Source: Gilliamella sp. WF3-4 (GTDB taxonomy: Bacteria; Pseudomonadota; Gammaproteobacteria; Enterobacterales; Orbaceae). From it: a DNA stretch of 64,000 bases. Location: the NCBI RefSeq assembly GCF_001690275.1, contig NZ_LZGW01000030.1:62001-126000 (forward strand). The letters run 5' to 3'. Below the pieces are notes generated by a model. It worked only from the letters and a program-made list of their open reading frames with translations. It was not told the DNA's origin and did no database searches. Shown here one piece after another: positions 5,202 through 20,362 of this stretch (its first letter is position 1; every line of letters starts with the position of its first letter). The position numbers and the translations under genes were made by a program.

Positions 5202-6212
5202 TTATTCATCTTTGGTTAATGTTGCAACCATTACCGCTTTGATCGTATGTAGGCGGTTTTCCGCTTCATCAAACACGATGCTATGTTTAGATTCAAAAAC
5301 TTCATCAGTCACTTCTAATCCATTGTTTAAACCATATTGCGCAGCCATTTGTTTACCAATTGTGGTATTGATATCATGAAAAGCAGGCAGGCAGTGCATA
5401 AATTTAACATTTGGATTACCAGTGAGTTTAATCACGTTTTGATTTACTTGATATGGCGTTAATAATTTAATTCGCTCATCCCAAACATTTTTAGGTTCGC
5501 CCATTGACACCCATACGTCCGTGTATAAAAAGTCAACATCTTTAACGCCTTGGGCAACCTCTTCAGTTAAGATAATTTTTGCTCCTGTCGTTTTAGCGAT
5601 ATCTTGGCACTTTTGCACAAGGTCAGCTTCAGGTTGGCAAGCTTTTGGGGCAACTAATCGAATTTCCATTCCCATTAATGCCGCGCCTTCCATTAATGAA
5701 TTCCCCATGTTATTTTGTGCATCGCCTAAATAAGCAAATTTAATACTGTTTAATGGGCGATCGCCGATATGCTCTTGCATTGTCATAAAATCGGCTAATA
5801 TTTGCGTTGGATGTGCTTCGGTTGTTAAACCATTCCATACTGGCACGCCTGCATATTGAGCTAAGGTTTCAACGATATCTTGCCCATAACCTCGATACTC
5901 AATACCATCATACATTCTTCCAAGCACACGCGCTGTATCTGCAATCGATTCTTTATGGCCAATTTGGCTGCCACTTGGTCCTAAATAGGTGACTTGAGCG
6001 CCTTGATCAAACGCACCCACTTCAAAAGCGCAGCGGGTACGAGTTGAATCTTTTTCGAAAATAAGGACGATATTTTTACCAACTAAATGTTTTTTTTCGT
6101 TACCTTGTTTTTTGGCTTTTTTTAGTTCGATAGCCAGTTCAATCAATTGATTAATTTCTGCTGGAGTAAAGTCGAGTAAACGTAAAAAATGGCGTTGATA
6201 AAAACCGTGCAT
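5202..6212 (-). CDS. argF: Ornithine carbamoyltransferase
   Basis: Forms citrulline from ornithine and carbamoyl phosphate in arginine synthesis. The 336-aa product has the carbamoyl-phosphate motif STRTR (56-60), HPTQ (about residues 134-137) and the HCLP motif near residues 274-277. Length is typical of enterobacterial ArgF/ArgI. AGGAGCTCAAT precedes the ATG. The gene diverges from carAB, which makes its co-substrate carbamoyl phosphate, and the shared 268-bp intergenic region has two ARG-box-like sites. The catabolic version (arcB) usually sits with arcA/arcC, which are absent, so an anabolic role is inferred. Confidence 0.95.
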
Positions 6213-11153: not shown

Positions 11154-12107
11154 ATGGATATGATTCATTCCTCTGATCTAAAAACGATCATGCATTCCAA
11201 GCGTGCCAATATTTATTATTTAGAGCATTGCCGTGTTTTGGTTAATGGTGGGCGTGTTGAGTATGTGACGGAGCAAGGGCAACAGTCTTTATATTGGAAT
11301 ATCCCAATAGCTAATACTACCTGTATTTTATTAGGCACCGGAACGTCATTAACGCAAGCAGCCGTGCGAGAGCTTTCACGTGCAGGCGTCATGATAGGTT
11401 TTTGTGGAGGAGGCGGAACCCCACTTTTTTCATCAACTGAATCTGAGTTTGCCTGTCAATTTTTTTCGCCACAAAGTGAATATCGCCCTACAGAGTATCT
11501 ACAAAGCTGGTGTCAATTTTGGTTTGATGACAAGCGTCGGTTACAAGCAGCTAAGCTATTACAACAAACACGGCTTAAGATTATTAGCGAATGTTGGCCA
11601 AAATTTGATTGGGATATCGACAAAACGAAATTAGAGCAAATCCTTGTGGATGCAACACAACAATTTACTGATGTGGATAATAGCCAAGCACTTTTAGCCG
11701 CTGAAGGGCGAATTAGCAAACGCCTTTATGGCATGGCAAATCAATTAACACTACAAGATGATAAATTTAAGCGTGAGCATGGTACGCATGGTAAAAGTCA
11801 TGACCCGGCTAATCAATTTTTAGATCATGGTAACTACTTAGCCTATGGCCTTGGTGCAACGGCTTGTTGGGTATTGGGGTTACCCCACGGGCTGGCTATT
11901 TTACACGGAAAAACTCGGCGTGGTGGTTTAGTTTTTGATGCGGCTGATATTATCAAAGATGGCATTGTATTACCCCAAGCCTTTTTATCAGCTAAACAAG
12001 GGGATAGTGAAAAAGAATTTCGTATGGCGTGCATTGCGCAATTTGCCCAATTAGAAGCACTCGATAAAATTATTGATACCTTAAAACAGATAGCCGATCA
12101 AATATGA
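11154..12107 (+). CDS. cas1: Cas1, type I-F CRISPR integrase
   Basis: Integrase subunit that inserts new spacers with the Cas2 part of Cas2-3. The 317-aa product follows the I-F Cas1 family closely: SDLKTIMHSKRANIYYLEHC at the N-terminus, RVEYVTE, IANTTCILLGTGTS, the GFCGGGGTPLF loop, and the metal-binding region around DHGNYLAYGLG ... LPHGLAILHGKTRRGGLVFD. The start agrees with the family N-terminus although no strong SD is visible. It overlaps cas3 by 4 nt (ATGA), the canonical I-F arrangement. Confidence 0.97.
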   Translation: MDMIHSSDLKTIMHSKRANIYYLEHCRVLVNGGRVEYVTEQGQQSLYWNIPIANTTCILLGTGTSLTQAAVRELSRAGVMIGFCGGGGTPLFSSTESEFACQFFSPQSEYRPTEYLQSWCQFWFDDKRRLQAAKLLQQTRLKIISECWPKFDWDIDKTKLEQILVDATQQFTDVDNSQALLAAEGRISKRLYGMANQLTLQDDKFKREHGTHGKSHDPANQFLDHGNYLAYGLGATACWVLGLPHGLAILHGKTRRGGLVFDAADIIKDGIVLPQAFLSAKQGDSEKEFRMACIAQFAQLEALDKIIDTLKQIADQI

Positions 12108-15100
12108 ACATTTTACTTGTTAGCCAATGCAAAAAGAACGCCTTAACCGAAACACGGCGAATTATCGATCAGTTTGCTGAACGTTGTGGAGAACGCACAT
12201 GGCAAAGCCCAATGACCGAAGCCGGTCTACAAACACTCTATAAATTGTTACGCAAAACCGCACGAAAAAATACCGCGGTTGCCTGCTATTGGACACATGG
12301 TAAAAATTTAACTGATCTTTTGTGGATTGTGGGCGATCGCAGTCAATTTAATCAAGAAGGGCGCGTCCCAACCAACCGTACGCGGCGTAATATTTTACGT
12401 AGTGATAGCGAAAATTATTGGCAATATGCAACCACTATTCAATTAATTACAACCATAGCGGCACTACTTCATGATTTAGGTAAAGCAACGATTGGTTTTC
12501 AATCTAAATTACGAGCAGAAACGGCTGTAGCTGCTGATCCTTACCGACATGAATGGATTTCGTTGCAATTATTTTTATTAATGATTCAAGACTGCACCAC
12601 CAACGAAGCCTTATTTAATCGATTAGCAAATTTTACTGAATATCGACAACAGCATCCTCATTGGTACAAACAGCTCACCCAAGTCGAAAAAAATGATCTT
12701 ACCCAATTGCCTTTATTGGCACAGTGGATCGCGTGGCTCATTGTGTCGCATCATCGAATGCCGTTTTTATCGGTCTCATTAGATGGCGATAAAGGAAAGA
12801 AGCAAAAGCAAGAATTATATCTTTCAGGTTTAAAAACAACAACTTTCTATAGAATACTAACAGCTGTTGATAAATGGGTTAAAAACAGCTATAGCCAACA
12901 CTCATCCCCCAACGATTTTTGGCAACTAAAAAGTGATATCACCTTAAGCCAACCTTGGCTTAAAAAATTAAGCCGTTATGCAACCAAAGCTCTAAACCAT
13001 ATTCCTTTAATGCACTTATCTACTATTGACCCGTTTTTATTGCATATTTCGCGCTTAGGTTTAATGGTGGCTGATCATAACTATTCTAGTTTGTCTTTAG
13101 CAAATAAAGAAGCTGACGTAAATAAATCCATATTGATTGCCAACACAAATTACCAAAAAAAGCCTAAACAGTGTTTAGATGATCATTTAATTGGGGTCGC
13201 TGATTTAGCGGCTCGTTTTGCTCGTTTATTACCTAAAATAATCACCGAATTACCTGCCATCAATCAACATAAACCTTTTACCAAACGAACAACTATAAAA
13301 CGATTCCAATGGCAAAATCACGCGTTTGATTTAGTCAAAAGTTATCAACAACTATCTGATGAATGTGGCTTTTTTGGTGTGAATATGGCATCGACTGGCT
13401 GCGGTAAAACTTTAGCCAATGGGCGGATTATGTATGCGCTTTCAAATCCTAAACGGGGCGTGCGCTTTACCATTGCATTGGGATTACGTGTTTTAACGTT
13501 GCAAACCGGTAAAGCATTAAGAGAAAGATTACACTTAAGTGATGAACATCTAGCAATTTTAGTGGGTGGGCGTGCCACAAAAACCTTGTTTGAGCTGAGT
13601 AATGAAGACATTGAACAAAACGATTCAGAAAACCAAGGTAGTGAATCTATCGAATCGTTACTTGATGAATATCTTGATGTAGCAGAAAGTGGTATTGCGG
13701 ATTGTGAGTTAGGGACTATTATCGAAGACAGTAAAGCACGGCAATTACTTTATGCGCCCATTGTGACATGCACTATTGACCATATTATTCAAGCGAGTGA
13801 ATGTGGGCGTGGTGGTAAATATATTGCACCCACGTTAAGATTGTTAACCTCAGATTTGATTTTAGATGAGCCAGATGATTTTGATCAACATGACTTACCT
13901 GCACTGGCTCGCTTGGTGCATTTAGCTGGGTTATTTGGTAGCAAAGTGCTACTCTCATCAGCAACCTTAACACCAGATTTAATTGCCGGATTATTTGATG
14001 CTTACCAAGCAGGGCGAAAAATTTGGAATCAAAATAACCAATATGCCAATAATACCATTATATGTGGTTGGTTTGATGAATATGAACAGTCGATATCACC
14101 AATTGCTGATACTAAAACGTTTAGCGATCATCATCAGCAATTTGTAGCAATGCGCATTCATCAATTAGAACAGAGCGCAATCCGTCGTCAAGGGCATATT
14201 TTGGATCTACTAAATTACCAAGAAAATAAAACAGAAAACCAAAAAATCAATTATGGTGTGCTGGCTAAACAATTATTAGATCAAGCTTATCAATTTCACC
14301 AAGATCATCATCAAATAGATAAAAAATCACAAAAAAAGGTAAGTATTGGTTTAATGCGTTTTGCCCATACCGAAGATGTTATTTCACTTACAGAACAAAT
14401 TTATGCCCAAACCAAGTTACCTACTGATACTGCTTTTCATATCGTGGTTTATCATGCTCGGCAACTGCTATTATTGCGTAGCCAGTTAGAAGAAAAACTT
14501 GATAGAATTTTAAATCGCAGTGATGAACAGGCATTATTTCATCAGCCTGAAATTATCAATGCCATCAAAGATAGCGATAAACAAAACCATATTTTTATTG
14601 TTATCGGTACGCCAGTGACCGAAGTCGGACGCGATCACGATTATGATTGGGCAATTGTTGAACCATCATCCATGCGCTCTATTATCCAGCTAGTGGGGCG
14701 AGTATGGCGTCACCGACCACAAAAAATGGCACAAAAAGCCAATGTGGCGATATTAGGATCGAATTTAACGGCAATTAAAGCTAATTATCGTACGGATAAG
14801 GCCTGTTTTACTAAGCCTGGATTTGAAGAAGAGTCATTATTCTTGCTGAAAACCCATAAAACAAATGAACTCATTCCAGCTTATCAGTTAGTTAATATAG
14901 ATGCGGTTCCACGTATTAAGTCTTGCCCTGAAGATGGGCTAACGCTCGCCGAATTAGAACATAAGGTCATGGCAAATCTGTTTGCGATTCATGCCCGTAA
15001 AAGTAATTATGTTACCAGCTATTGGCAACCAGACTTAGCTCATCACCATTGTGTACATTTACAGGCAATTTCACCATTTAGAGGAAGTGATAAAACACAA

Positions 15101-15415
15101 GATGAATATATCTGCCAACTTGATGATGATGGCGATTATCAATTTAGCTATGCAGATATCGCATGGCAAACACCAGATGAGCGCTGCCCAAGTACTCAAA
15201 ATAACCAAATCAAATACAAACACTGGTTATTTGAAAATCCGCAAGTGAAACCATGGTTAGAAAATAGTGTAGAACAAGCCATAACAAAAATAGCGGAACA
15301 TTTCCCCAATAAAAACTTATACCGATTAGCCAATGAGTTTTGTAGTGTCAGCTTATATCGGAATAGCAATTGGCATTTTCATCCTTATTTTGGTTTTTAT
15401 AAAAAGAAAGGATAA
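12104..15415 (+). CDS. cas3: Cas2-Cas3 fusion, type I-F nuclease-helicase
   Basis: Type I-F effector nuclease that also joins the adaptation complex through its N-terminal Cas2 domain. The 1103-aa product starts with a Cas2-like MNILLVSQCKK segment (1-90). It continues with an HD nuclease domain (ALLHDLGK, His123-Asp124), a superfamily 2 helicase with Walker A STGCGKT near 427-433 and a DExD-type LDEPDD box near 587-592, motif III SSAT, motif VI QLVGRVWRH, and a C-terminal domain. Length and order are as in other I-F Cas2-3 proteins. It is translationally coupled to cas1. Confidence 0.97.
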   Translation: MNILLVSQCKKNALTETRRIIDQFAERCGERTWQSPMTEAGLQTLYKLLRKTARKNTAVACYWTHGKNLTDLLWIVGDRSQFNQEGRVPTNRTRRNILRSDSENYWQYATTIQLITTIAALLHDLGKATIGFQSKLRAETAVAADPYRHEWISLQLFLLMIQDCTTNEALFNRLANFTEYRQQHPHWYKQLTQVEKNDLTQLPLLAQWIAWLIVSHHRMPFLSVSLDGDKGKKQKQELYLSGLKTTTFYRILTAVDKWVKNSYSQHSSPNDFWQLKSDITLSQPWLKKLSRYATKALNHIPLMHLSTIDPFLLHISRLGLMVADHNYSSLSLANKEADVNKSILIANTNYQKKPKQCLDDHLIGVADLAARFARLLPKIITELPAINQHKPFTKRTTIKRFQWQNHAFDLVKSYQQLSDECGFFGVNMASTGCGKTLANGRIMYALSNPKRGVRFTIALGLRVLTLQTGKALRERLHLSDEHLAILVGGRATKTLFELSNEDIEQNDSENQGSESIESLLDEYLDVAESGIADCELGTIIEDSKARQLLYAPIVTCTIDHIIQASECGRGGKYIAPTLRLLTSDLILDEPDDFDQHDLPALARLVHLAGLFGSKVLLSSATLTPDLIAGLFDAYQAGRKIWNQNNQYANNTIICGWFDEYEQSISPIADTKTFSDHHQQFVAMRIHQLEQSAIRRQGHILDLLNYQENKTENQKINYGVLAKQLLDQAYQFHQDHHQIDKKSQKKVSIGLMRFAHTEDVISLTEQIYAQTKLPTDTAFHIVVYHARQLLLLRSQLEEKLDRILNRSDEQALFHQPEIINAIKDSDKQNHIFIVIGTPVTEVGRDHDYDWAIVEPSSMRSIIQLVGRVWRHRPQKMAQKANVAILGSNLTAIKANYRTDKACFTKPGFEEESLFLLKTHKTNELIPAYQLVNIDAVPRIKSCPEDGLTLAELEHKVMANLFAIHARKSNYVTSYWQPDLAHHHCVHLQAISPFRGSDKTQDEYICQLDDDGDYQFSYADIAWQTPDERCPSTQNNQIKYKHWLFENPQVKPWLENSVEQAITKIAEHFPNKNLYRLANEFCSVSLYRNSNWHFHPYFGFYKKKG

Positions 15416-15425
15416 AAGAATATTG

Positions 15426-15475
15426 TTTTATACTGAAACACATAGTTACCTGAAACTTTTTTGAGAAAATATCAG
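15426..15475 (+). repeat. Copy 1 of a dispersed ~50-bp element
   Basis: TTTTATACTGAAAC (14 nt) is identical to 63631-63644. The next 35 or so nt align with few changes and one gap (ATAG, CCTGAA, T6, AAAAxxTCA). It lies right after the cas3 stop and before the CreR-like element. Confidence 0.5.
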
Positions 15476-15525
15476 CAGGTGAATAATGGTTGCTAGTAAA
15501 AGCGAGGTAATTCTTTTATACTTGA

Positions 15526-15608
15526 TGGCACTGCTGTGTAAGCAGTTTAGAAACATTAAATTTTTGTTTTAATTTAATAGTTCCACCGCCGCATAGGCGG
15601 TTTTTATT
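15526..15608 (+). ncRNA. Candidate CreR-like mini-CRISPR guide RNA (two pseudo-repeats, one pseudo-spacer)
   Basis: Pseudo-repeat 1 (15526-15553) matches the array repeat at 20 of 28 positions. It keeps the 8-nt handle TTTAGAAA, and its hairpin is CTGCT/AGCAG instead of CTGCC/GGCAG, so both strands of the stem changed together. Pseudo-repeat 2 (15581-15608) has hairpin CCGCC-GCATA-GGCGG, again with a paired stem change and the identical loop, and runs into TTTTTATT so it could also terminate the transcript. Between them is a 27-nt pseudo-spacer (15554-15580). A possible -10 TATACT (15517-15522) would start transcription at the first pseudo-repeat. By analogy with known Cas-regulating RNAs, Cas6f would process this RNA and Cascade would use it for partial-match repression. 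No experiment supports it here. The second hairpin alone could be just a terminator. Confidence 0.75.
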
Positions 15609-15641
15609 TGTCAATAACGCTTAATTTATTAAAATAACATT

Positions 15642-15675
15642 CCCATTAAATTTTATTTTTAATTTATTATTGATC
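15642..15675 (+). promoter_or_regulatory. Predicted Cascade target of the pseudo-spacer, with CC PAM
   Basis: CC at 15642-15643 is the type I-F PAM. The next 27 nt (15644-15670) match the pseudo-spacer at 23 positions: 1-11 and 14-23 perfect, mismatches at 12, 13, 24 and 27. A 32-nt footprint would reach 15675 and cover the predicted -35 box TTGATC (15670-15675). The imperfect distal match fits binding without Cas3 cleavage, as known for CreR guides. Confidence 0.7.
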
Positions 15676-15698
15676 TATTTGCTTCTTTCGTATATATT
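15670..15698 (+). promoter_or_regulatory. Predicted promoter of the 106-aa gene and csy operon
   Basis: TTGATC (15670-15675), a 17-nt spacer and TATATT (15693-15698) form a plausible sigma-70 promoter about 100 nt upstream of the 106-aa gene. It overlaps the end of the predicted Cascade target. Confidence 0.55.
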
Positions 15699-15729
15699 TG
15701 TTTCGTGGTTTACTCACAAATATTAAGAA

Positions 15730-15764
15730 GCTCTTATCCGATGTTTACGTCATTTGATAAGAGC
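15730..15764. promoter_or_regulatory. Inverted repeat in the leader of the 106-aa gene
   Basis: 9-bp perfect arms GCTCTTATC (15730-15738) and GATAAGAGC (15756-15764) with a 17-nt centre. No T tract follows, so a terminator is unlikely. It could be an operator or an RNA structure in the 5' leader. Confidence 0.5.
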
Positions 15765-15800
15765 ATATTTCAACCTAGGCATAAATGAAGGAGAAATACT

Positions 15801-16121
15801 ATGTCTAATAATAAATATTTTGTTATACCTCGTCAAATTTCTTTTGATAAAGAATTACTAAATCAAGTACAAAAATTTGTTATTGATTCACCCGCTGCTA
15901 ATGATGAATTGATTGTTTTATCAGTGCAGTCTAAATATTATTCAATTCGAGATCTAATGAAAATTCTAAATATTTCGACAATTAAAGAAATTAAATATTT
16001 GATTAAGAAATTAAAGCTTGAACAAGATAATTATAGATATCTTAATTCCAATAAAGAATGGGTGTATAACAGTAATGCTTTAAATATATTGAATTTATAC
16101 TTAAAATTTAAAGCAGCATAG
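15801..16121 (+). CDS. Unrecognised 106-aa protein between cas3 and csy1
   Basis: Not a standard type I-F component and I do not recognise a family. The protein is basic, AT-codon rich and probably alpha-helical in its second half. Residues 49-70 (SIRDLMKILNI then KEIKYLIKKLKL) look like a helix-turn-helix followed by a recognition-type helix, so a DNA-binding role is possible. AAGGAG is well spaced before the ATG, supporting real translation. It is preceded by an inverted repeat and the CreR-like element and followed by an intrinsic terminator, so it may be the main product of this promoter. Candidates are a cas regulator, an anti-CRISPR-like protein or a toxin kept silent by Cascade; the sequence does not decide. 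Confidence 0.7.
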   Translation: MSNNKYFVIPRQISFDKELLNQVQKFVIDSPAANDELIVLSVQSKYYSIRDLMKILNISTIKEIKYLIKKLKLEQDNYRYLNSNKEWVYNSNALNILNLYLKFKAA

Positions 16122-16130
16122 CATTAAATT

Positions 16131-16160
16131 AAAGGCTTATATTTAATGATATAAGCCTTT
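16131..16160 (+). terminator. Intrinsic terminator or attenuator between the 106-aa gene and csy1
   Basis: Perfect 12-bp stem AAAGGCTTATAT/ATATAAGCCTTT with a 6-nt loop, followed by TTAATTT, 30 nt before csy1. It would make csy1-4 expression depend on read-through or on an unseen internal promoter. Confidence 0.8.
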
Positions 16161-16189
16161 TTAATTTCGAAAAAATATAAGGAGGGTCA

Positions 16190-17569
16190 ATGAACAATAT
16201 TTCTTGGCAAGATATAAGAAAGGTAATTTTAGACTTTCTACAACAACGGCTTGCCAATAATAGTAATTATAAAAGTGAAACTGCTAAGCTAGAAAAAGCA
16301 AAAGAGGCGGGTGATTTAGTTGCAGTTAATGAAGCTCAGCAAAAATTAGATGAGTTAGCCAAGCGATTTGATTTTGAAACGTGGATGGAAGATGCAGCAA
16401 CAAGGAGAATATTTTGGATTTCTTTATGTCATTTTATATCAAAAGGAATTCATTCTTCTAGCTTGGGTGATAATATTAATCATTCAACTCGATCACAACC
16501 AACAGGACAGCAATATATTTCTTCAGCAACACCTACAATTATTCCGATAGATTGCTCAGGGAATGCGGCTGCCCTTGATATTTTTTCTTTATTAAATCAA
16601 TCTATTAAAGATGATATAACATTTTTACAATTGATAGTAGATGAGCATCCAGCTATTTTACCCGCTCTTTCAGATGATCGACAAAAAGCATCGCTTTATT
16701 TAGCTAATTTTAAAAAAGCAATCTTTAATGATTTTAGCAAACCTAAAACCTCGGAATTGAATAAGCAATTATATTGGACGAATAGTGAAGAGACTTATTT
16801 ATCTGATCAAGAAAATAATTATCGATTATTAATTCCTTTGCATCCGAGCTCATTGTGTCATTTGGTTTATCAAAAAGTACAATCACGATTTTCAGAAGAA
16901 AATAAATATGCACGAGAATTGCGTAAGAAAAAGGATGTTGTACATCAACCTTATTTTTCTTTTCATGATTTAGCCGTTGTTAAATTGGGAGGAAGTAATC
17001 CTCAAGGCGTAAGCCAGTTAACTAGTAATCAGGGCGGGCGCAACTTTTTATTACCCTCAATGCCGCCAAAATTGGCTAAAACTGCTTTTCCTTCAATTTC
17101 AAACTTTAAGGAAACTATTTTTGATCAAGCTCTTCAATATTATTGCCGATATGGTTTTAAATTATTATTTGAGACAGTTCAAGACAAAAAAAATAATTTC
17201 TTAGTAAGAAATAAGAGAAAAGAGGCATTTTTTATCATTTTAACATTAGTTCTTAAGTTTGCGGCACATATCCAAAAAACCAAAGATGCCGGTTGGAGTC
17301 GGGAATCTTCGCTTAAATTTTCGCAACAACTTTGGCTTGATCCAAAACGAGCACTATTGGATGGTGAAACAGATTTTAAACTAAGATACGAACAAGGTGA
17401 TTGGCAACAAGAGCTAGAAAAACAATTTGCCTCTTGGATTCAAACGATTTTAAAAAATAAATTCAAAAATATTGAAAAACAATTTGATGATGTTGAATAT
17501 AGTGAATGGCGAAGTGAATTTAATGCGGCAGTAAAAGCGAGCCAACGCAAAAGAGAGGGGATATTTTAA
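16190..17569 (+). CDS. csy1: Csy1 (Cas8f), large subunit of the type I-F Cascade
   Basis: Binds the crRNA 5' handle with Csy2 and recognises the PAM in the I-F surveillance complex. The 459-aa product has the Csy1 N-terminal pattern (helical, coiled coil about 25-60, then FDFETWMEDAATRRIFWIS). It also has the conserved LIPLHPSSLCHLVYQK segment, the LGGSNPQGVSQLTSNQGGRNFLLPSMPPK block (about residues 264-292) typical of I-F Cas8, and a helical C-terminus. AAGGAGGGT precedes the ATG. It overlaps csy2 by 1 nt (TAATG). Confidence 0.95.
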   Translation: MNNISWQDIRKVILDFLQQRLANNSNYKSETAKLEKAKEAGDLVAVNEAQQKLDELAKRFDFETWMEDAATRRIFWISLCHFISKGIHSSSLGDNINHSTRSQPTGQQYISSATPTIIPIDCSGNAAALDIFSLLNQSIKDDITFLQLIVDEHPAILPALSDDRQKASLYLANFKKAIFNDFSKPKTSELNKQLYWTNSEETYLSDQENNYRLLIPLHPSSLCHLVYQKVQSRFSEENKYARELRKKKDVVHQPYFSFHDLAVVKLGGSNPQGVSQLTSNQGGRNFLLPSMPPKLAKTAFPSISNFKETIFDQALQYYCRYGFKLLFETVQDKKNNFLVRNKRKEAFFIILTLVLKFAAHIQKTKDAGWSRESSLKFSQQLWLDPKRALLDGETDFKLRYEQGDWQQELEKQFASWIQTILKNKFKNIEKQFDDVEYSEWRSEFNAAVKASQRKREGIF

Positions 17570-18492
17570 TGGCATCATTAACTTATTATTTATTCTTTGA
17601 TCATGTCCAAATTCATAATGCTAATGCAATCTCTAGCCCATTAACCTATGGATTCCCTGCTATTTCAGGATTTTTAGGGGCGATTCATGCTTTAAGTCGA
17701 AAAATTGAATCAGAAAATCCAATCTATTTAGATGGTGTGTTAATTGCATGTCATGAATGTGATGTACAAGTTTATCGACCAAGCAACTATGCGGATTATA
17801 CGTTTCGATTAACGCGCAATCCACTCTCTAAAAATGGCAGTACTCGTTCCATTATTGAAGAAGGGCGCGCTCATTTAGATGTTTCATTACTTGTCGAGGT
17901 AAAAATTGAAGATCCGGAGACATTATATGACGTCGAGCAAAAACAAGCATTTATCCAACAAATGGAACAGAAGCTTTACCAACAACGTATAGCGGGTGGT
18001 CATGTGGTATTTATTGGCGATGTCAAATTAATTTCTTCTGATGAACCAGATATTGATTTAGCTAATTTATTATTACCGGCATTTGTTTTAGTTGAAGCAC
18101 CACAAGATTTACAAGATATTACTGCTGAATTGCAGCAACAAGATCCTAATGCTACCGCACTGGATGCATTAATTGAAACGGCAATGCTACACCATAATCC
18201 GCAAGAAGATGGGCATTGGCAAACAACGTCGGTTAAGCAAGATCGTGGTTGGCTTGTTCCTTTACATTTGGGCTATCAAGCAATTTCGCCGCTGTTTGCT
18301 GCAGGTAAGGTTGAACATGCACGCAGTAATGAACATGCCACGCAATTTGTGGAGTGTATATATGGGCTGGGTAAATGGGTCTTTCCTTTGCGTTTGCAAG
18401 AGAATTTATCACAAGCTTTTTGGCGTTATCAATGTAGTCAATTACAATCAAATGATGCAGAAATTTATATTATCAATCAAGAAACCAATTAA
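17569..18492 (+). CDS. csy2: Csy2 (Cas5f), type I-F Cascade subunit
   Basis: Cas5-type subunit that caps the 5' end of the crRNA with Csy1. The 307-aa product has the Csy2 N-terminus with FDHVQIHNANAISSPLTYGFPAISGFLGAIHALSR. It has a central VVFIGDVKLISS region and a C-terminal GWLVPLHLGYQAISPL motif. Length is normal. It is translationally coupled to csy1 and 35 nt from csy3. Confidence 0.95.
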   Translation: MASLTYYLFFDHVQIHNANAISSPLTYGFPAISGFLGAIHALSRKIESENPIYLDGVLIACHECDVQVYRPSNYADYTFRLTRNPLSKNGSTRSIIEEGRAHLDVSLLVEVKIEDPETLYDVEQKQAFIQQMEQKLYQQRIAGGHVVFIGDVKLISSDEPDIDLANLLLPAFVLVEAPQDLQDITAELQQQDPNATALDALIETAMLHHNPQEDGHWQTTSVKQDRGWLVPLHLGYQAISPLFAAGKVEHARSNEHATQFVECIYGLGKWVFPLRLQENLSQAFWRYQCSQLQSNDAEIYIINQETN

Positions 18493-18527
18493 GTAAATTT
18501 AGAAAATTATAGAATAAGGAATACATT

Positions 18528-19562
18528 ATGAGTAAAGATAAAATCACCACCGCCAGCGTACTTGCTTTTGAACGTAGTTTTGATATTTCAGATGCGATTT
18601 TTGCACAGCAGGATCCTAAAGATAGCAATAAATTATCCTCTGTTGTGGTCACTGAAAAATCAGTGCGAGGCACTATTTCAAATCGCCTTAAAAATGCAGT
18701 AGCCAACGATCCAACCAAATTAGATGCTGAAATACAAAAACCAAATTTACAGACAGTTGATGTTGCAGCATTAGATGCCGATAAAGAGACTTTAGTGATT
18801 AAATGGAGCTGTAAAGTATTACCTTTTTTAGGTAAACCGTCGGTATGTAATGAAATTGAATATCAAGAAGCGTTAGAAAAAACAACCCAAGATTATATCC
18901 AAACACAAGGGTTGACTGCGTTGGCTAAGCGTTATGCCATTAATATCTTAAATGGTCGTTGGTTATGGCGTAACCGTATGGCAGCGGAGCAAATTAGCTT
19001 GTTAATTACTCGTAAAGTTGATAAAGATAATAAAGGTAGTAAGGATGAAAAAACAATCGCCGAAGTGAGTGATGTTAAACAATATCAACTTAACTCATTT
19101 GATTATGATGATAAAGCAGTAAATGCTCTCACTGCGCTGATTGAAGCAGGCTTATCAGGTAAAGAATTTGTGATTTTTAATGTTGAAGCTAAACTAAAAA
19201 TGGGCTTAGGGCAAGAAGTTTACCCATCACAAGAATTAATTTTAGATACAGGTAAAACAAAAAGCAAAGTACTCTACGAAAAAAACAAACAAGCGGCCAT
19301 GCATTCCCAAAAAGTCAGTAATGCCATTCGAACTATCGATACTTGGTATGACGATAATGCACCATTCCCAATCGCAATAGAACCGTATGGCTCGGTCACT
19401 TCAATGGGGCATGCTTTCCGTCAACCAAAACAGAAATTAGATTTTTATACTTTGTTTGATAATTGGGTATTAAAGGGTGAAAAACCAACGCTTGAGCAGC
19501 AACATTATGTGATTGCGGTATTAATTCGTGGTGGTGTATTTGGTGCCAGCGGTAAGGAGTAA
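18528..19562 (+). CDS. csy3: Csy3 (Cas7f), Cascade backbone subunit
   Basis: Six copies form the helical backbone that holds the crRNA spacer in I-F Cascade. The 344-aa product begins TTASVLAFERSFDISDAIF and contains KWSCKVLPFLGKPSVCNE, the NILNGRWLWRNR box and a C-terminal GSVTSMGHAFRQPK block, all typical of Csy3. ATAAGGAAT lies upstream of the ATG. It is followed after 5 nt by csy4. Confidence 0.96.
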   Translation: MSKDKITTASVLAFERSFDISDAIFAQQDPKDSNKLSSVVVTEKSVRGTISNRLKNAVANDPTKLDAEIQKPNLQTVDVAALDADKETLVIKWSCKVLPFLGKPSVCNEIEYQEALEKTTQDYIQTQGLTALAKRYAINILNGRWLWRNRMAAEQISLLITRKVDKDNKGSKDEKTIAEVSDVKQYQLNSFDYDDKAVNALTALIEAGLSGKEFVIFNVEAKLKMGLGQEVYPSQELILDTGKTKSKVLYEKNKQAAMHSQKVSNAIRTIDTWYDDNAPFPIAIEPYGSVTSMGHAFRQPKQKLDFYTLFDNWVLKGEKPTLEQQHYVIAVLIRGGVFGASGKE

Positions 19563-19567
19563 ATAAG

Positions 19568-20137
19568 ATGCACTCACACTATTTAGAACTGAAAGCTATT
19601 TCGCAAATTGAAATCACCGAGGTGGATGTGATGAATCAAGTGATGCAGTCCCTCCACCAAATTTTGGTCAATCATCAAGGAAATATTGCAATAAGCTTTC
19701 CTTGCTATAATGTGCACCGAACATTAGGCGGAGTAATTCGCCTATTTGGTACCGAGCAGGAGCTACAAAACCTTAAAGCAGATATACAGCAAAAATCATC
19801 AATTAGTGATTATGCTTTACTGATGTCTATTGAAGCTATTCCCGTTACGATAAAAGGTTATTTACGTTTAATTCGTATTCATCCAAAAGGACAAAGCGCA
19901 TTGAGGCGTGCTGAAAAACGATTAACAGCACAAGGTAAATGGTCGGCAGAGGTTAAACAAAAAATGATAGAAAAATGGGGAAGCGTTAATTTGCAATATC
20001 CCCATATTCACCTTGCTAGTAAAAGTACAGGGCAAAAGTTTATTTTGTGGTTAAAACAAGAAAAATGCTTAAAACCTGTATCAGGTACATTTAATAGCTA
20101 TGGATTAAGCCAAACTGCTACCGTTCCCGATTTTTAA
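19568..20137 (+). CDS. csy4: Csy4 (Cas6f), CRISPR RNA endoribonuclease
   Basis: Cleaves pre-crRNA at the base of the repeat hairpin and stays bound to it. The 189-aa product starts HYLELK and has His30 in SLHQIL, equivalent to the catalytic histidine of known Csy4. It has an arginine-rich helix (RRAEKRL near 113-119), the SKSTGQKF motif (151-158) with the active-site serine region, and the C-terminal YGLS ... VPDF ending. TAAGGAG precedes the start. Its natural hairpin substrate is visible in the array and, modified, in the 15.5-kb element. Confidence 0.96.
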   Translation: MHSHYLELKAISQIEITEVDVMNQVMQSLHQILVNHQGNIAISFPCYNVHRTLGGVIRLFGTEQELQNLKADIQQKSSISDYALLMSIEAIPVTIKGYLRLIRIHPKGQSALRRAEKRLTAQGKWSAEVKQKMIEKWGSVNLQYPHIHLASKSTGQKFILWLKQEKCLKPVSGTFNSYGLSQTATVPDF

Positions 20138-20274: not shown

Positions 20275-20362
20275 GTTTACTGCCGCATAGGCAGTTTAGA
20301 AATGGGAAACGTAGAGAAATTTTTTATTTGGATAGTTTACTGCCGCATAGGCAGTTTAGAAA
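20275..20362 (+). CRISPR. Minimal type I-F CRISPR array: two identical repeats, one 32-nt spacer
   Basis: 28-nt repeats at 20275-20302 and 20335-20362 are identical. Each has hairpin CTGCC-GCATA-GGCAG and ends in the 8-nt handle TTTAGAAA, the pattern cut by Cas6f. The single spacer occupies 20303-20334, the standard I-F length. The AT-rich region 20138-20274 would be the leader. An intact cas set with one spacer suggests severe array contraction or arrays elsewhere. Confidence 0.95.

Follow-up and report, generated by a model that had tools for sequence, protein, structure and literature searches.

A probable CreR-type guide RNA in the type I-F cas locus of Gilliamella and related Orbaceae

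We identify a mini-array (positions 15526–15608) in the type I-F CRISPR–Cas locus of Gilliamella sp. WF3-4 that, judged by sequence, is very probably of the CreR type, with a guide that would be loaded into the Csy complex and repress the promoter of orf106–csy1–4. Sequence comparison reveals a guide-like anatomy, guide–target pairing in the register of Cascade, a PAM, and a position at the likely csy promoter. We strongly infer that an RNA loaded into the Csy complex and selected to bind its target DNA is the simplest account of these features. Coordinates refer to the window, the 64-kb stretch of the 2.85 Mb host draft genome that was analyzed.

Anatomy of the mini-array and its target

The window encodes a complete type I-F set at 11154–20137 (profile searches and ORF reading), with the gene order cas1, cas3, a 385-nt gap, orf106, csy1, csy2, csy3, csy4 and then a two-repeat array with the repeat GTTTACTGCCGCATAGGCAGTTTAGAAA (Table 1). 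Its csy1 is the single copy found in the host genome. A second array of three I-F repeats is present on another contig (G000:C7:14129-14276, L058), and its repeats, GTTCACTGCCGTGTAGGCAGTTTAGAAA, differ from the array repeat of the window.

Table 1. Features of the type I-F locus and its mini-array in the window
Feature	Position	Strand	Details
cas1 (type I-F)	11154..12107	+	PF01867 4.4e-14
cas3 with N-terminal Cas2 domain (type I-F)	12104..15415	+	PF21384 5e-40, PF22590, PF18019
Putative −10 TATACT of creR	15517..15522	+	3 nt upstream of psi-repeat 1; no clear −35
psi-repeat 1, degenerate I-F repeat	15526..15553	+	stem CTGCT/AGCAG, intact handle
Pseudo-spacer (guide), 27 nt	15554..15580	+	between psi-repeats
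psi-repeat 2	15581..15608	+	hairpin CCGCC-GCATA-GGCGG; TTTTTATT replaces handle
PAM CC	15642..15643	+	flanks target
Target (protospacer) of guide	15644..15670	+	23/27 match
Putative orf106-csy1-4 promoter	15670..15698	+	TTGATC 15670-15675, 17 nt, TATATT 15693-15698; consensus match only
Leader hairpin/inverted repeat, upstream of orf106	15730..15764	+	−16.1 kcal/mol, z −5.2
orf106	15801..16121	+	C-terminal MerR/RacA-like winged helix-turn-helix (predicted); found only in Orbaceae
csy1 (cas8f)	16190..17569	+	PF09611 3.9e-96
csy2 (cas5f)	17569..18492	+	PF09614 5e-89
csy3 (cas7f)	18528..19562	+	PF09615 1.2e-133
csy4 (cas6f)	19568..20137	+	PF09618 7.3e-43
Canonical array, two repeats and one spacer	20275..20362	+	repeats 20275-20302, 20335-20362

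Downstream of cas3, two degenerate repeats (psi-repeats 1 and 2) flank a spacer, and such a pair within a cas locus is a recognized hallmark of CreR. Folding places both psi-repeats in the hairpin of the array repeat. The first-pass annotation had proposed two degenerate repeats with perfect hairpins in the cas3–csy1 interval, compensated stem changes and a handle kept by the first repeat; all coordinates hold, the paired changes CTGCT/AGCAG and CCGCC/GGCGG are confirmed with 5/5 pairs also kept in psi-repeat 1 of relatives, and the handle TTTAGAAA is intact in psi-repeat 1. The match of psi-repeat 1 to the Rfam family CRISPR-DR4 reaches 25 bits (E 0.035), under the gathering score of 35, and psi-repeat 2 is absent from Rfam matches at E up to 1. 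The TATACT motif of the putative creR promoter is not picked up by a consensus promoter scan. Of the 19 Orbaceae units, 17 have it directly 5′ of psi-repeat 1; L036 carries TATAAT in its place, and in L052 the motif precedes an extra pseudo-repeat rather than psi-repeat 1. This extra degenerate repeat in L052 (~5555–5620, oriented as csy1) is followed by a spacer before the creR unit, creating a three-repeat mini-array.

Psi-repeat 2 is the sole terminator-like site of 15416–15815 (1 found, shuffle mean 0.1) and probably also forms an intrinsic terminator. At least five T occur in the eight bases 3′ of its stem in 15 of 19 units, and a weak run of 3–4 T is present in L044, L047, L051 and L055. 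That psi-repeat 2 has exchanged its handle for a T run is understandable if its stem is needed as the 3′ hairpin of the RNA and the handle goes unused.

Comparison of the guide with the downstream interval confirmed the proposed target in full, with a 23/27 match between the 27-nt spacer and 15644–15670, perfect identity at positions 1–11 and a CC PAM; the mismatches fall at positions 12, 13, 24 and 27. A chance match in AT-rich DNA was considered and rejected for the window: none of 400 dinucleotide-shuffled versions of the downstream interval equals the match of the first 20 nt, and a search of the 2.85 Mb draft genome finds the PAM with positions 1–11 only at the target. The promoter-like pair starts on the last base of the guide match. 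A −35 box had been placed at the end of the footprint, and TTGATC does occupy that position, but the hexamer pattern is not above chance, with two promoter-like pairs found here against a shuffle mean of 2.6 in this AT-rich DNA. If this consensus call is right, the guide has a partial, PAM-flanked match at a cas promoter, a further property by which CreR elements are known.

Guide–target pairing across Orbaceae and other families

A search of 149 genomes, host included, recovered csy1 in 36, with 23 of these in Orbaceae, and we compared the csy1 surroundings of the window and the 22 other Orbaceae genomes. The unit of psi-repeat, guide and psi-repeat with its own downstream target is present in 19 of 23 csy1-bearing Orbaceae genomes, in each case between cas3 and the next gene, under a unit search that required a psi-repeat 2 pattern. 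Three genomes are without it: L049 encodes cas3 and csy1 separated by a 121-nt gap with no element, and L041 and L057 show neither an element nor a cas3 match in the stretch compared. L043 is cut by a contig end and was therefore not judged. In all 19 units the psi-repeat 1 stem retains 5/5 pairs (G-U allowed) as CTGCT/AGCAG, CTACC/GGTAG, CTACT/AGTAG, CTGCC/GGTAG, CAGCC/GGTTG or CAACC/GGTTG, and this persistence across variants indicates a stem held through changes on both sides.

The Orbaceae guides range from 20 to 38 nt and include clearly differing sequences that each have their own target, such as CATTAAATTTT, TATGACATTCTTTTGA, ACATTACGATT and TTTTAAGTATT. Defining the target as the best match of the first 22 nt of the guide (20 in L050) on both strands of the downstream interval, we found the best site on the + strand and PAM-flanked in 19/19 loci, with CC in 17 and CT in L037 and L052; in L038 a TC-flanked site ties with the best target. 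Co-variation in Orbaceae had been set beforehand as the check on the first-pass reading, and each of the 19 loci matches its own guide, with guide and target changed together. In 13 of 19 loci, window included, the 32-nt footprint extends to a TTG-type hexamer that has TAnnnT at 15–19 nt, and a promoter-like pair lies 6–7 nt past the footprint in L042 and L056. Our pattern detected no promoter-like pair within 75 nt of the listed target in L039, L044, L045 and L047; in L039 and L045, another CC-flanked site lies closer to the promoter. In L040 and L046 the creR–promoter stretch looks duplicated (~5610–5780, oriented as csy1), with handle and seed kept in the downstream copy, no psi-repeat 2 seen there, and a second CC target upstream of the proximal promoter.

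In type I Cascades the Cas7 backbone flips out every sixth guide base. For a position-wise count of mismatches, near-identical or related loci were merged to one row (L040/L046, L044/L047, L048/L054, L051/L055) to give 15 groups, targets were assigned manually for L037 and L052, which have a CT PAM, and one site was used where two equal or near-equal CC sites exist (L039, L045, L040/L046). The 15 groups contain zero mismatches at positions 1–5, 7 and 8, and 6, 12 and 8 mismatches at positions 6, 12 and 18, respectively. These three positions hold 26 of 45 mismatches versus 7.5 expected, with 0 of 20,000 row permutations as high (rows share ancestry, and permutation values here and below are not exact probabilities), and the other five phases hold 1, 3, 5, 7 and 3. 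With L037 and L052 left out, 22 of 39 mismatches remain at 6/12/18. This register test is not circular, since the target pick counted all 18 positions alike. Mismatches on every sixth position, together with Cascade base flipping, point to pairing inside Cascade and support the CreR-like reading of the first-pass annotation.

Retention of pairing in evolution, our own added mark of a CreR, is likewise seen when guides are re-paired with foreign targets. At positions 1–17 without 6 and 12, own guide–target matches number 206/225 in the 15 groups (best of 20,000 re-pairings 165) and 331/360 in all 24 loci, including nine outside Orbaceae described below (best of 20,000 re-pairings 213), in a test that is partly circular because each target was picked as its own guide's best site. 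Across all 24 loci, own agreement at positions 1–5 is 1.00 versus 0.31–0.55 for unrelated pairs, and at positions 6, 12 and 18 it is 0.42, 0.21 and 0.42 versus 0.42, 0.21 and 0.38; best-site choice inflates the level of own agreement but leaves its course along the guide unaffected. Restricted to Orbaceae, agreement at positions 6, 12 and 18 is 0.60, 0.20 and 0.47 for own pairs versus 0.49, 0.15 and 0.40 for unrelated pairs. Positions 6, 12 and 18 thus look as free as if never paired. In a whole-guide cross-comparison (first 20 nt, whole interval) the own guide outscored all others in only 11 of 17 loci, a weak outcome explained by the far half of the guide hardly pairing, and the position-wise tests were therefore added.

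Beyond Orbaceae, we compared 40 of 43 csy1-bearing genomes (G100, G368 and G476 left out; some stretches cut by contig ends), applying a generic hairpin-plus-handle rule to the 1300 nt upstream of csy1 and scoring all 18 positions. Eleven candidates were recovered in other gammaproteobacterial families, all on the strand opposite csy1, and in nine of these the target clears the next site by the required margin of 2 and is likewise on the minus strand; L087 (12 matches versus 11 at the next site) and L092 (15 versus 14) failed the margin and were dropped before the count. The nine loci have 31 mismatches, of which 21 are at positions 6, 12 and 18 versus 5.2 expected (0 of 20,000 permutations). 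Looser co-directional candidates in the 40 genomes had no target above 10/15 (positions 6 and 12 unscored), and the co-directional layout is therefore seen only in Orbaceae. Some of the divergent elements may be CreA guides of toxin modules rather than CreR. A short ORF lies between the divergent guide's target and csy1 in L069 (~−674 to −482 relative to the csy1 match) and likewise in L087 (~−178 to −1), where the target is the one that failed the margin; the two ORFs start alike (NKKYVKEETFTL.. and AKRYVRKETLTV..) and are candidates for small toxin or regulator genes.

orf106, the leader hairpin and alternative explanations

In the window, a 106-codon gene, orf106, separates the putative promoter from csy1. 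Scanning 84,980 species genomes with two conserved peptide patterns from orf106 recovered 11 relatives, all in Gilliamella or Frischella, Orbaceae that inhabit the bee gut. We found no convincing orf106 match in Pfam, PHROGs or PDB sequences; the PADLOC profile mad1 matches 4 of the 11 members (best E 0.00023). The structure model of orf106 has pLDDT of at least 90 in 54 of 106 residues and is confident only in its C-terminal part, with block means of 92–95 across residues 51–100 and 41–50 across the first 40 residues. In the model this C-terminal domain has a helix-helix-strand-strand-helix order like MerR/RacA DNA-binding domains, at middling scores: the best Foldseek match is RacA at E 0.018, with none at 0.001 or below, and VIA comparison aligns pSK1 Par (Z 8.3, rmsd 1.3, 53 aligned) and RacA (Z 8.1, rmsd 1.9, 58 aligned). 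orf106 is tentatively predicted to carry a MerR/RacA-like winged HTH DNA-binding domain.

In the window the leader upstream of orf106 contains a hairpin, and leader hairpins are present in 7 of 14 orf106 loci (L037, L038, L040, L042, L052, L053, L054) under a rule of exact arms of at least 6 within ~80 nt of orf106, and by eye some further orf106 loci have a version with mismatched arms. The stem varies on both sides between loci, CAGATG/CATCTG in L040 versus CAAATG/CATTTG in L037, and no comparable hairpin was seen in the five element-bearing loci without orf106. In many orf106-bearing relatives the leader hairpin differs from that of the window and is of the AACCCCAGATG/CATCTGAGGTT type, in a similar place. 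The leader hairpin is a candidate operator or RNA control element, and a second regulatory layer formed by orf106 and this hairpin is a lead.

One alternative is that the guide is the antitoxin of a CreTA/CrePA addiction module. Csy with the guide would then silence a toxin encoded just after the target, either orf106 or a small leader RNA, and csy1–4 would be co-repressed through the shared promoter. A I-F CreTA occupies the same cas3–csy1 interval in Acinetobacter (PMC10097628), and 14 of 19 element-bearing loci, as well as L043, carry orf106 (104–107 codons) after the targeted promoter and before csy1; the other five element-bearing loci are without orf106, and their guides target the interval directly before csy1. 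CreP toxins typically carry KilA-N (PMC12737573), and orf106 too has a predicted DNA-binding fold, but no KilA-N Pfam match was found among the 11 orf106 members and the predicted fold resembles MerR/RacA domains. One of the 11 members weakly matches the PADLOC profile AbiEii (E 0.0018), a toxin family, and inspection of the leaders by eye revealed no conserved mini-ORF. On balance we regard an addiction module as improbable.

The remaining alternatives appear considerably less probable still. Degenerate repeats and a window guide of 27 rather than 32 nt would fit leftover repeats around a spacer once acquired from the promoter and now without function, and AT-rich DNA gives long chance matches, as in L037, L047, L048 and L051, where shuffle P is 0.095–0.345 when the PAM is ignored; such decay is the hardest to credit, however, given that stem pairs are kept through changed stems, that positions 1–5 hold zero mismatches in 24 loci, and that mismatches follow a 6-nt register, which argues against drift, as drift would spread them evenly. 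It is also very improbable that psi-repeat 2 is a plain cas1–cas3 terminator that resembles a repeat by accident: although the interval has no other terminator-like site, psi-repeat 2 shares the GCATA loop of the array repeat and resembles it in the stem, it comes after psi-repeat 1 and a guide in 19/19 units while the other cas3 locus, L049, has neither part, and its T run is weak in 4 of 19. More likely, from its sequence features, psi-repeat 2 serves as both hairpin and terminator. Activation of the csy promoter by target-bound Csy, for which the lack of a promoter-like pair within 75 nt in L044 and L047 would leave room, since the complex may there sit upstream of RNA polymerase, is similarly hard to reconcile with a footprint that reaches a −35-like hexamer in most loci and with the published I-F case, which represses (PMC10097628).

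Proposed circuit and relation to known systems

We propose that creR is transcribed from the promoter just upstream (TATACT), as the 3′ end of the cas1–cas3 mRNA, or both, and that the transcript would end at the psi-repeat 2 terminator. By analogy with I-F crRNA biogenesis, Cas6f would cut in psi-repeat 1 to release an RNA resembling a crRNA, whose 5′ handle would be 8 nt long and whose 3′ end would be formed by the psi-repeat 2 hairpin. Csy bearing this guide would pair with CC-flanked 15644–15670 in a five-paired, one-flipped register, a pairing constraint drawn from the comparison of loci. The complex would then cover the −35 of the orf106–csy1–4 promoter and repress it, presumably with no recruitment of Cas3 because pairing is partial. 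The result would be negative feedback in which abundant free Csy complex lowers its own synthesis, and competing crRNAs or disabling anti-CRISPRs should lift the repression.

Mini-arrays matching cas8 promoters were reportedly described by Shmakov et al. in 2023 (NAR), with one I-F1 mini-array said to have been tested as a regulatory guide. For CreR (Liu et al. 2023, Cell Host Microbe), types I-B, I-E and V-A are the ones named in PMC13131331. The Orbaceae element shares with CreR a mini-array in the cas locus, a guide partly matching a cas promoter and the logic of feedback (PMC13131331, PMC12737573), and differs in belonging to a I-F system, with Cas6f hairpins and a terminator-shaped psi-repeat 2. 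Another close system is the Acinetobacter I-F CreA (Wang et al. 2023), which has a CC-flanked target and Csy-dependent repression; its mature RNA, with psi-repeat 2 replaced, carries 8-nt and 20-nt handles, and positions 6, 11 and 18 are unpaired (PMC10097628). Acinetobacter CreTA and the Orbaceae element have in common the cas3–csy1 interval, two degenerate repeats with hairpins, a CC-flanked partial target, the Csy effector and an unpaired position 6. In CreTA, however, the guide is divergent from a mini-ORF/toxin and silences creT (PMC10097628), whereas the Orbaceae guide is co-directional with csy and its target is the promoter before orf106–csy1–4; moreover, CreA is reported to lack a canonical seed (PMC10097628), in contrast to strict positions 1–5 here. 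The RNA anti-CRISPR Racr, a solitary repeat in viral genomes that engages Cas6f/Cas7f (PMC10651486), is alike as a repeat mimic engaging these proteins and unlike in that here two repeats and a guide sit in a host cas locus and are common across the family; the window element is not a solitary repeat in a mobile element. One pattern scan of viral contigs, with the stem end, handle and common seed, recovered no phage-borne copy.

The novelty implied by the first-pass annotation was too high, because a CreA guide in the same I-F cas3–csy1 interval is already published (PMC10097628). Given the CreR and I-F CreA precedents the kind is known, and the Orbaceae element is a well-supported further case with no new principle. 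It is unusual in its co-directional guide, its terminator-like psi-repeat 2 and the placement of orf106 under the same promoter. Our literature search found no paper joining CRISPR, Gilliamella and type I-F, and an earlier description of Orbaceae loci may exist; within the literature searched we did not meet a mismatch-register test over many species.

A broader and speculative reading, which we hold to be doubtful though somewhat less so than an addiction module, is a two-layer Orbaceae circuit in which the guide would derive from the cas1–cas3 3′ end, psi-repeat 2 would double as terminator, and orf106 with the leader hairpin would either add a second, protein-based control of the cas genes or report that anti-CRISPRs have inactivated Csy. 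If true, the adaptation and nuclease operon would throttle the effector operon. For the CreR-type reading, the distribution of the element suggests that the family maintains I-F Cascade under RNA-guided self-control and that other gammaproteobacteria have counterparts. The 6-nt mismatch register offers an evolutionary read-out of Cascade–DNA pairing without experiment, and its count a simple statistical test that separates working mini-arrays from decayed ones. Gilliamella provides many natural guide–target pairs for asking how little pairing suffices to repress without cleaving, which is relevant to autoimmunity and anti-CRISPR sensing.
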